Source of the DNA: Sipunculus nudus
Lineage: Eukaryota > Annelida > Sipuncula > Golfingiida > Sipunculidae
Direction of reading: 5' to 3'
DNA length: 64,000 nucleotides
Assembly: GCA_026874595.1 (NCBI GenBank)
Contig: CM049310.1
Span: forward strand, 39,685,558 to 39,749,557
In this document: positions 10,347 through 13,860 of the stretch, piece by piece
Layout: each line of letters opens with the position of its first letter
How positions within the stretch are numbered: the stretch's first letter is position 1
Notes under the pieces: generated by a model
Seen by the model: only the letters and a program-made list of their open reading frames with translations
What the model was told of the DNA's origin: nothing
Database searches by the model: none
Program-made: the position numbers and the translations under genes

Positions 10347-10350
<4 letters not shown>

Positions 10351-10727
10351 ACGAAGACAAATTGTTAAGGGGAAAAATCCTGGGCCAATCCGGGAGTCGA
10401 ACTATGGTCGGTGGCGCACAAGTCCGGCGTACCAACCGAATCGCTAGAAAAGCAAGCTTCACTAGCAGTTCAGTCCGCTTTTAATGGCACCCCCAAGAGT
10501 CACACTTTGGTGAGCTTATTCCCTGGGCCATAAAGTTAAACCGTCACGTTAGACTAGCCCCCATTTTGGGACGAAGGCAAATAAATGACGGGAAAATCCT
10601 GGGTCGAACCCAGGTCGGTGGCGTACAAGTCCGGCGAACCAACCGCTTCGCTAGAAAAGCGAGCTTCACTAGCGAGACAGTTCGGTCCGCTTTTATGGCA
10701 CCCCGTAACACAACAATTTGTCTTCGT

Positions 10728-10731
<4 letters not shown>
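10347..10731 (-). mobile_element. TRIM-like miniature LTR element, degenerate copy 1
   Basis: Two LTR-like units (10347-about 10495 and about 10567-10710) flank a short spacer sharing CACACTTTGGTGAGCTTATT with the better copy at 12.74 kb. The position matching the primer binding site (about 10548-10563) is degraded but keeps TGGGGGCT on the minus strand. Each LTR holds the same tRNA-like promoter boxes as copy 2. One oddity is a 20-bp block at 10712-10731, after the right LTR, that is the exact reverse complement of 10347-10366, making the whole unit a perfect-ended foldback. There is no coding capacity. Confidence 0.75.
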
Positions 10732-12290: not shown

Positions 12291-12739
12291 GTATATAAAT
12301 AGGGGTGATTTTTCAATGCTTTCATTCTTGCGCATGTGTTCTGCAGAGATGTCCCAACAACTTGACCAGAAGAAAAGACTGCAAATGATGCAATGGCAAT
12401 AGCAGCTGAACGAATACAAGTGAACCAGAAAATATTGCAAGCAAGTTTGCTTGCGGCTGTGGTGAACAGTAAAAGGACAAAAAGACCTGTACAAAAACAA
12501 GGAGGAAAGGCTCATAGAAGGAAAAGGAGATCGTGTTCGGTATTAAGTTATCATCACCAACGTCCCTGGCTGCGCCTGGAGTAGATCTATTTGCTGATTT
12601 TGACGTTGAAGCTCCTAATTCATCATCAGGTCTCTGTGTGTCTTCTTCCTCATCTGTAACCGTCTTGGTTGGCTCAGCTTTTCTCTTTCGCATTTTTTGG
12701 CATAGTAATAGCCTAATATTCGCTGTCAAAAATAAATAA
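12291..12739. pseudogene. Degenerate core of the arm-flanked element
   Basis: Two short coding-like traces meet in the middle. On the plus strand, 12345-12560 reads through a basic stretch containing SLLAAVVNSKRTKRP and HRRKRRS. On the minus strand, 12690-12540 encodes MRKRKAEPTKTVTDEEED and a Ser/Thr/Asp-rich stretch. Such basic and acidic fragments occur in two-ORF transposons such as PIF/Harbinger, but no catalytic motif remains, so the family is uncertain. Confidence 0.3.
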
Positions 12740-12892
12740 TGTTACGAAGACATAGCTGAGGGGAAACATTGGGCCGATCCCGGATTCGAACCCATGTCGG
12801 TGGCGCACATGTCCGGTGTTCCTACCGCTTCGCTAGCAAAGCAAGCTTCACTAGAAAGACAGTTCGGTCCGCTTTTATGTCACCCCGTAACA
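12740..12892 (-). repeat. 3' LTR of the TRIM with tRNA-like Pol III boxes
   Basis: On the minus strand this LTR has TAGCGAAGCGGTAGG, an A-box-like stretch, followed about 27 nt later by GGGTTCGAATCC, a near-ideal B box. It runs from TGTTACGGGG to TTCGTAACA. Confidence 0.8.
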
Positions 12893-12903
12893 CGTCCCCT
12901 CTT
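12893..12903 (-). other. Polypurine tract of the TRIM
   Basis: AAGAGGGGACG directly precedes the TG of the 3' LTR, as expected for plus-strand priming in LTR retroelements. Confidence 0.7.
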
Positions 12904-12990
12904 AAGAGCGTTCTGCTATCAGAACAAAACTAATTATCCCTGGAGTCACACTTTGGTGAGCTTATTTCCTGGGCCACAAAGTTTACTGTC

Positions 12991-13008
12991 ATCCCGGACG
13001 AGCCCCCA
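12991..13008 (-). other. Primer binding site of the TRIM (tRNA-Pro type)
   Basis: TGGGGGCTCGTCCGGGAT begins two bases after the 5' LTR. From established knowledge this 18-mer is complementary to the 3' end of tRNA-Pro, the primer of many vertebrate gammaretroviruses and of some other LTR elements. No viral gene is present here. Confidence 0.88.
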
Positions 13009-13010
13009 TT

Positions 13011-13166
13011 TGTTACGAAGACAAATTGCTGTGGGGAAAACATTGGGCCGATCCCGGATTCGAACCCATGTCGGTGGCGCACATGTCCTGCGTTCCAACC
13101 GCTTCGCTAGGAAAGCAAGCTTCGCTAGCGAGTCAGTTCGGTCCGCTTTTATGTTACCCCGTAACA
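13011..13166 (-). repeat. 5' LTR of the TRIM with tRNA-like Pol III boxes
   Basis: It carries TAGCGAAGCGGTTGG (A-box-like, with a possible GCG/CGC D-stem) and GGGTTCGAATCC (B box) in the element's own orientation, spaced as in tRNA genes. It is closely similar to the 3' LTR. Confidence 0.8.
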
Positions 13167-13259
13167 ATAAATAAAAACTGTCAATAAACACTGAGTGGGC
13201 ACGGATGAGCGGCTTATTTTTCTCGTGTTTTTTTTTTTCAAACTGTGCTGGAATGCTTG

Positions 13260-13860
13260 TGCTACCGCTCTTTAATAGCCCACGGCTTGTCTACCGTAAT
13301 AAACCGTAGTAACACCGTAGTAAGATCTTAGCGGCACCGTGACCACCGCAAGTCCACCGTAAATCCACCGTGGCAGCACCGTAAGTACCGTAGCAACACC
13401 GTAGTGGCACCGTATAGAACCGCAGGTCAAACAGCTACACCGTGTGTCAAACCCTGCTGAACCGAAATGACACCGTGGGCACCGTAGTGTCACCTTATTG
13501 ACACCCTAAGGCCATCGGGACAAACCGTGAGTATACCGTGCAATACCGTACTGACAACGGGGAAGATGATGACTGTTGACGATCGTCGAGACCTCCACGG
13601 TGGATTTTACGAAATTTCGTCCCGGTTTTCCCGGTTTAAAAACCGGGACGAACCGGGGTACATAAAACACCGTAGTAACACCTATGGTCGGTGTGACTGG
13701 GCCCTTATTACCAACCAAGTTTCGGAGGTCACCGTACGGTCGCCGTAGATTATGTGAGTGCAAACAACGTGGGATGAAAAATCACACGGTAACCGTACGG
13801 TCTCGAAAACTCACGGCAAGCCGGGGGTTTGAAAAAATCGTACGGCGCCTGGTGTATATG
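13260..13860. repeat. Right arm of the putative DNA transposon: ACCGT/ACGGT word array
   Basis: ACCGT recurs with mostly 11-bp spacing from 13290 to about 13555, then ACGGT-type words follow to 13850. A perfect 12-bp hairpin, CGTCCCGGTTTT (13618-13629) with AAAACCGGGACG (13639-13650) and a 9-nt loop, lies between the halves. The left arm has a matching CCCGG/CCGGG hairpin. Confidence 0.6.

Follow-up and report, generated by a model that had tools for sequence, protein, structure and literature searches.

TRIMs that carry tRNA-like sequence in their LTRs were named Helenus in 2024 (Kojima, PMC10886601) and were described from fungi, six animal phyla and Selaginella. Pteriomorph bivalves hold 51 Helenus families, some of them with tRNA-Pro primers, and the zebrafish elements, with 5575 LTRs, form tandem arrays (PMC10886601). 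Animal members produce 4-bp target duplications, and their mobilisation by Gypsy elements was inferred from their primer sites; most Helenus encode no functional tRNA, according to Kojima, Pol III has so far been no more than proposed as the polymerase that transcribes them, and terminators are not discussed in the main text of the paper (PMC10886601).

The element analysed here, from Sipunculus nudus, is of the Helenus type and at most a new member of that group, an assignment made from published features. A sequence-only reading of the locus had supposed that it may be undescribed, for which we find no support, TRIMs of this kind having been published as Helenus (PMC10886601). At 427 bp the element is shorter than the 1000 bp that bounds Helenus, with two LTRs and a non-coding interior; its PBS, complementary to a tRNA 3′ end, adjoins the 5′ LTR, a PPT precedes the 3′ LTR, 4-bp duplications flank it and its LTRs hold A and B boxes at tRNA spacing, the high copy number and the arrays being further points of likeness. 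It differs in box A, which has TAGCG where most Helenus have TRGCY (its CGG does fit their YGG, and box B has their GGTTC), and in that its LTR is also found on a gag-bearing leader, whereas no long LTR stretch common with autonomous elements is expected in PMC10886601.

The plant element Cassandra, as presented in the available part of PMC7215508, is comparable in that its LTR contains Pol III signals, a promoter as well as a terminator, and in its LTR-sharing tandem arrays and a presumed read-through (there, of intervening LTRs in the arrays, as presumed by the authors); its promoter is that of 5S rRNA and its helper is given as unknown, whereas no 5S match appeared here when 20 of the 40 sampled loci were searched at E ≤ 5. 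The bivalve biv-TRIM, in the portion of PMC6934838 drawn on here, is likewise a small TRIM with tandem arrays and solo repeats, but its repeats measure 202–218 bp and its interior 77–80 bp, its PPT is mostly GGGGAGA, and neither a clear PBS nor a helper was found; our element has LTRs of 156 and 153 bp, an interior of 118 bp and an exact PBS. A tRNA-derived SINE would be a single unit without LTRs that inserts by target-primed reverse transcription, with which the LTRs, PBS, PPT and 4-bp duplications do not agree.

Structure and genomic copies of the TRIM

The coordinates of all features (table 1) refer to the window, i.e. the whole stretch of 64,000 nucleotides that was analysed. The order LTR, gap, PBS, interior, PPT and LTR on the minus strand, already proposed in the sequence-only reading, was borne out at the dimensions tabulated. 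The window LTRs start with TGTTACG, end with CGTAACA and are 89.5% identical to each other, and an AA gap separates the 5′ LTR from the PBS. Judged from its length, the interior is too short for any protein of the replication machinery. Beyond what that reading had noticed, the sequence TTAT is duplicated on both sides of the element, the match extending to 8 bp because the insertion site is itself repeated, and a second, decayed copy is present at 10710–10347, with a second form of the primer site (see below) and an inverted 23-bp piece of an LTR end 5′ of the copy (10347–10731).

Table 1. Features of the TRIM and its surroundings in the 64-kb window.
Feature	Position	Strand	Remark
Whole TRIM element, Helenus type	12740..13166	minus	427 bp
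5′ LTR	13011..13166	minus	156 bp
CATAAAAG, TATA-like, LTR positions 14–21	13146..13153	minus	exact in 67/91 LTRs
Box A-like TAGCGAAGCGGTTGG, 5′ LTR	13095..13109	minus	strict pattern match
Box B GGGTTCGAATCC, 5′ LTR	13056..13067	minus	strict pattern match
TTTT 3′ of box B, Pol III terminator-like, LTR 127–130	13037..13040	minus	5′ LTR
PBS TGGGGGCTCGTCCGGGAT, complementary to tRNA-Pro 3′ end including CCA	12991..13008	minus	18/18
Interior, including gap, PBS and PPT	12893..13010	minus	118 bp
Polypurine tract region CTTAAGAGGGGACG	12893..12906	minus	
3′ LTR	12740..12892	minus	153 bp
Box A-like TAGCGAAGCGGTAGG, 3′ LTR	12821..12835	minus	
Box B, 3′ LTR	12782..12793	minus	
5′ target site duplication, TTAT as read in the orientation of the element	13167..13170		
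3′ target site duplication, TTAT as read in the orientation of the element	12736..12739		
Second, decayed TRIM copy (LTR 1–107, interior 1–68, LTR 7–156)	10347..10710	minus	within (AT)n tract

Short direct repeats of families D2 and D3, related to CACCGTAGTAACACC, are scattered next to the element at window positions 13297–13682. Four ORFs of the window gave no Pfam match above the cut-off; one of the four has no PDB match and another no homologue at E ≤ 1e-5.

Searches of the genome with the full element, with the window LTR alone and with the LTR of another copy gave 48, 44 and 47 matches, respectively, from the best 40 scored of 3972, 3628 and 1478 first-look candidates, numbers that are candidates rather than counts but suggest that there are thousands of copies. 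Our sample of copies consists of the 40 loci of the full-element search (L001–L040; L041, a repeat of L008, was dropped) and is biased towards well-kept copies. It holds 91 LTRs, the fetched stretch containing exactly two in 33 loci and three to five in the remaining 7; the LTRs of two-LTR loci are on average 92.2% identical (range 87.2–98.1), those from different loci 89.0%. Full-length copies with 4–6 bp duplications, which the sequence-only reading had proposed to look for, do exist: exact 4-bp duplications enclose 24 of the 32 copies with both outer ends complete (8 of the 40 loci being set aside), as against only 2–5 of 32 at five shifted control positions, and 8 of the 32 have no exact duplication. 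Eight of the 24 duplications read ATAT and could be mimicked by the (AT)n site itself; the remaining 16 are words other than ATAT.

As for the loci with more than two LTRs, L008 consists of two elements side by side, and a single 4-bp duplication surrounds the whole array in L015, L021, L032 and L039. Three of the four LTRs of L015 are 97–99% alike and the fourth is 88–90% identical to them, which fits growth of the array after insertion; in L032, unlike this pattern, the outermost LTRs form the closest pair (94%). The other 36 scored places of the LTR-alone search were fetched as L047–L082, and five of them (L049, L050, L054, L062 and L081) have a single LTR with no interior match. One of these, L054, carries its own duplication, TCAG, and is a solo LTR of the sort that had been anticipated; L062 is a hybrid (see below). 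Paired LTR matches at C3:17284028/17293450 and C12:51328643/51341529 were considered as elements of 9 and 13 kb and rejected, since the same sequence adjoins both members of each pair, which makes them duplicated stretches.

The 3′ ends of tRNAs prime the reverse transcription of LTR retrotransposons. A host tRNA-Pro gene equals the animal tRNA-Pro sequence that we typed as a query over 72 of 72 bases, and the window PBS is therefore complementary at 18 of 18 positions to the 3′ end of the CCA-tailed host tRNA-Pro. Among the 50 interiors with a readable start, the exact 18-mer is present in 7. A second form is common, in which the first 12–13 bases are kept and followed by AACGT (9 with CCAACGT, 6 with CTAACGT); the remainder of the 50 are changed in other ways. 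This second form, the interiors of L001–L040 ending it in AACGT where the other form ends in CCGGGAT, resembles a stretch inside the candidate helper discussed below, CTCGTCTAAC (near position 2810 of copy L116). Near-identical tRNA-Pro genes occur in clusters in the assembly, 14 on C14:19081274-19156561 and 24 on C5:41625442-41807381 among the best 40 scored of 153 candidates.

Putative transcription signals in the LTRs

In both window LTRs, box A, TAGCGAAGCGGT(T/A)GG, starts at LTR position 58 and box B, GGGTTCGAATCC, at position 100. The two LTR pairs are the only strict A and B pairs (30–70 nt apart) on either strand of the window; no such pair appeared in 5 shuffled windows, and 1 in 20,000 dinucleotide shuffles of the LTR produced one, so the boxes at tRNA-gene spacing that had been read from the letters of each LTR are confirmed. 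The start of box A, CTAGCGAAGC, occurs twice in the window 5′ LTR, 18 bp apart, at LTR 39–48 and 57–66 (window 13128–13119 and 13110–13101).

Across the 91 sampled LTRs, box A (TRGYNNARNNG) is exact in 75 and box B (GGTTCGANNCC) in 57, the corresponding figures for base-shuffled LTRs being 7/91 and 0/91; with a looser B pattern, both boxes stand in order in 56 of the 91, 50 of these at one spacing. The 16 essential box columns are on average 95.2% conserved, against 92.1% elsewhere in the LTR (permutation p=0.075, or p=0.235 against columns of 80% or more, variable columns being omitted), and in a ranking of windows by conservation box A comes 16th of 142 and box B 72nd of 145. Selection on the boxes, judged by column conservation, was rejected as not significant. 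The boxes are retained, though with no measurable excess over the remaining LTR, and we attribute most of their retention to shared ancestry. Conservation of the boxes among copies, a point on which the sequence-only reading had staked its case, is thus confirmed as far as their presence in most copies goes, but not as a preference over the rest of the LTR.

In 79 of the 91 LTRs, box B is followed, before the LTR ends, by a run of four or more T (five or more in 8); of the 62 LTRs that have both box B and a later run of four, 51 have this run begin 16 nt past box B. The window 3′ LTR has only TTT at this terminator-like site. Runs of four or more T are found in 6 of 49 interiors, and by eye the window interior also has TTTT. 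To judge by the sequence, A box, B box and T4 are arranged as in a tRNA gene that ends in a short putative terminator, from which it follows that a full-length Pol III RNA would have to read through the T4 of the 5′ LTR. SINE-like transcription of the TRIM by Pol III is plausible. The further idea that the promoter is tRNA-derived finds agreement in the tRNA-type boxes and their spacing, but not in covariance-model searches: in 20 of the 40 loci, Rfam at E ≤ 5 gave 12 matches, all below their own gathering scores and none of them to tRNA or 5S, so the boxes may or may not descend from a tRNA. ARAGORN reported no tRNA in the window.

The LTRs also contain, near their start, the motif CATAAAAG, which we take to be a plausible Pol II TATA box; its columns average 96.3% conservation, and the form [CTA]ATAAAA is present in 75 of the 91 LTRs. 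The signal AATAAA was found in just 1 of 91 LTRs and 2 of 49 interiors.

The candidate helper and its hybrids with the TRIM

Two loci of the LTR-alone search, L055 and L062, continue from a TRIM LTR and PBS into a different leader and a gag-like start. When the leader of these hybrids was used as a query (best 40 scored of 3187 candidates) and 30 of the loci were read as L085–L114 (L085 being the same as L055), 28 of the 29 other copies proved to have no TRIM LTR before the leader, the exception being L103. What stands 5′ of the leader is a helper LTR end reading TTCCGTAACA or a variant, followed in most copies by a tRNA-Pro-like PBS. The LTRs of helper copy L096/L116 align over 683 bp at 92%, the exact LTR start not being fixed, and the A and B patterns tested are absent from them. 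Among stop-to-stop pieces, RVT_1 was recognised in L115 and L116 (53.8 and 50.3 bits, cut-off 29.6) and RT_RNaseH in L116 (43, cut-off 24.8); L115 further has Integrase_p58_C (33.2, cut-off 27), with H2C2 and rve below the cut-off, all upstream of RVT_1. L115 holds an internal 673-bp duplication, and L116 has the same domain order by alignment. Zinc knuckles were below the cut-off in L084 and L116, and a SCAN domain (27.8 bits, cut-off 27) was seen only in the helper-derived part of hybrid L084, the submitted pieces of L115 and L116, which are broken in that region, giving no SCAN match.

The likely helper of the TRIM is this family of Ty3/Gypsy elements, which is abundant, has its integrase ahead of RT and a tRNA-Pro-like PBS, and bears an LTR unrelated to that of the TRIM. 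An integrase upstream of RT is the domain order of Gmr1. Together with the SCAN-like Gag, it points to a Gmr1-like Gypsy element, a likeness of domains, the helper being known here only from broken copies; a link between SCAN and Gmr1-like Gypsy elements appears in the available parts of PMC3424704 and PMC4131045.

The hybrid loci are L055/L083, L062/L084 and L103. L084 consists of a TRIM LTR, the PBS, helper sequence matching L116 to about position 2814, and then TRIM interior, PPT and an LTR of which the initial 82 bp are present and do not differ from the 5′ LTR; the interior resumes inside the second primer-site form, and the switch lies within CTCGTCTAAC, a 10-nt microhomology found in both parents. 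In L083 the TRIM LTR and PBS are followed by three helper pieces reaching position 3808 of L116, the TRIM PPT and LTR, and a further interior and LTR, with a switch at AGAA (4-nt microhomology). The 5′ LTRs of both hybrids retain box A and CATAAAAG undamaged, but a broken box B in L084 and the lack of a T4 in L083 speak against a functional Pol III unit in these loci. The TRIM LTR of L103 has an internal deletion that removes box A.

A query spanning the 5′ junction of TRIM LTR and helper leader was matched through in at least 40 loci (all of the 40 scored, of 3448 candidates), spread over 16 numbered sequences; they include the query locus and L062, the two in which the boxes were read. Because such a query favours hybrids, the search establishes that at least 40 exist, not what share they make up. 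At least 5 of the 40 leader-search loci carry the TRIM LTR (L085 and L103 as read, three more by coordinates). As to the larger autonomous partner with the same LTRs that the sequence-only reading had proposed to look for, there are loci that join the LTR to the helper leader, but no pol was seen between two boxed LTRs; L083 and L084, followed to their 3′ junctions, have none.

Template switching between co-packaged RNAs would be the simplest reading of the hybrids, with a precedent in the complex LTR elements treated in the available part of PMC1950507; DNA recombination at short shared sequence could also have produced them. No report of hybrids of this kind or of this helper appeared among the open-access papers that our searches listed. 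What the family adds to the knowledge of Helenus is thus a likely helper and hybrids joining it with the TRIM. With its high copy number, clean duplications, candidate helper and hybrids, it offers a concrete case for two questions: the identity of the polymerase behind the RNA, and the means by which a helper with an unrelated LTR recognises that RNA.

Origin of the replicating RNA and of the boxed LTR

In our view the element is probably a TRIM of the Helenus type, an LTR retrotransposon that is not autonomous but is mobilised by a Ty3/Gypsy helper, and its RNA would be made by Pol III. The LTR–PBS–interior–PPT–LTR order, the 4-bp duplications, the PBS for the host tRNA-Pro, the LTR boxes and the Gypsy-like hybrids are all seen in the sequence. 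Pol III would begin transcription some 10 nt ahead of the box A of the 5′ LTR; many transcripts would stop at the TTTT right after box B, and a minority would continue across PBS, interior and PPT to a stop within the 3′ LTR, such a start and stop giving an R of about 80 nt. The helper Gag would package the TRIM RNA, tRNA-Pro would prime its reverse transcription, and the helper RT and integrase would complete the cycle. Counting against this explanation are the small number of exact PBSs, the copies without a duplication and the missing Rfam tRNA match, and its Pol III component in particular is weakened by box columns not clearly better conserved than the others, by the T4 of the 5′ LTR, which could end most transcripts early, by the TTTT in the window interior and the mere TTT of its 3′ LTR, and by CATAAAAG, which allows Pol II. 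A doubtful alternative is a TRIM whose replicating RNA comes from Pol II starting at CATAAAAG, the A and B boxes being the relic of a SINE or tRNA insertion. The columns of that motif are at least as conserved as the boxes, L083 and L084 keep it even though box B is broken in L084, and the gag-bearing leader to which the TRIM LTR is also joined would require Pol II for its long mRNA; against a Pol II origin speaks the rarity of AATAAA, and the fixed spacing of the boxes, with T4 where a tRNA gene would end, exceeds what one expects of a relic; the boxes also recur across Helenus families of several phyla (PMC10886601).

That the locus is merely two independent tandem SINEs with a coincidental PBS and PPT, the test that the sequence-only reading had set for itself, is extremely improbable: each unit does have A and B boxes and one has T4, but the sampled copies repeat the LTR–interior–LTR structure with TG...CA ends and PBS and PPT at fixed places, the 4-bp duplications enclose the pair, and the solo LTR has its own TCAG. 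Harder to dismiss, though still unlikely, is a reading in which the boxed LTR is that of a separate, full-size Gypsy lineage, the TRIM being an internal-deletion product of this lineage and the ‘hybrids’ its ordinary members. The junction loci and the leader-search loci with a TRIM LTR speak for this account; it sits badly with L083 and L084, which are devoid of pol and have TRIM PPT or interior at their ends, and with the leader copies, 28 of 29 of which have no TRIM LTR ahead. In a search for hybrid 3′ ends with the LTR of L083, moreover, none of the other 39 junction loci was among the best 40 scored, and the nearest loci, as far as they were read, proved to be TRIMs or, in two cases, duplicated regions with a single LTR. 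Distinctly unlikely, in our estimation, is a lineage of Ty3/Gypsy elements that has gag, may have pol, and combines in its LTRs a TATA-like site for Pol II with a full tRNA-type unit for Pol III (A box, B box and T4), so that one LTR would serve both a long element transcribed by Pol II and a short TRIM transcribed by Pol III, their interiors being repeatedly exchanged by template switching at the shared tRNA-Pro PBS. The broken box B of L084 and the loss of box A from L103 lead us to give less weight both to this dual-promoter lineage and to the full-size Gypsy lineage. If gag-bearing elements do replicate with the boxed LTR, one could no longer expect Pol III-type LTRs to be confined to miniature elements.

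Some observations concern the assembly itself. A COX1 search gave 11 matches, and the two that were read, on C60 (56,865 bp) and C123 (112,245 bp), encode a cytochrome oxidase of bacterial type, the C60 protein being at most 58% identical to the best 80 GTDB loci; similar matches, listed by match only, are on C61, C62, C66, C72, C74, C75 and C89. The assembly thus seems to hold bacterial contigs among its small contigs. A short chromosomal COX1 match with an in-frame TGA, at C5:67852325-67852477, is possibly a nuclear copy of mitochondrial DNA.
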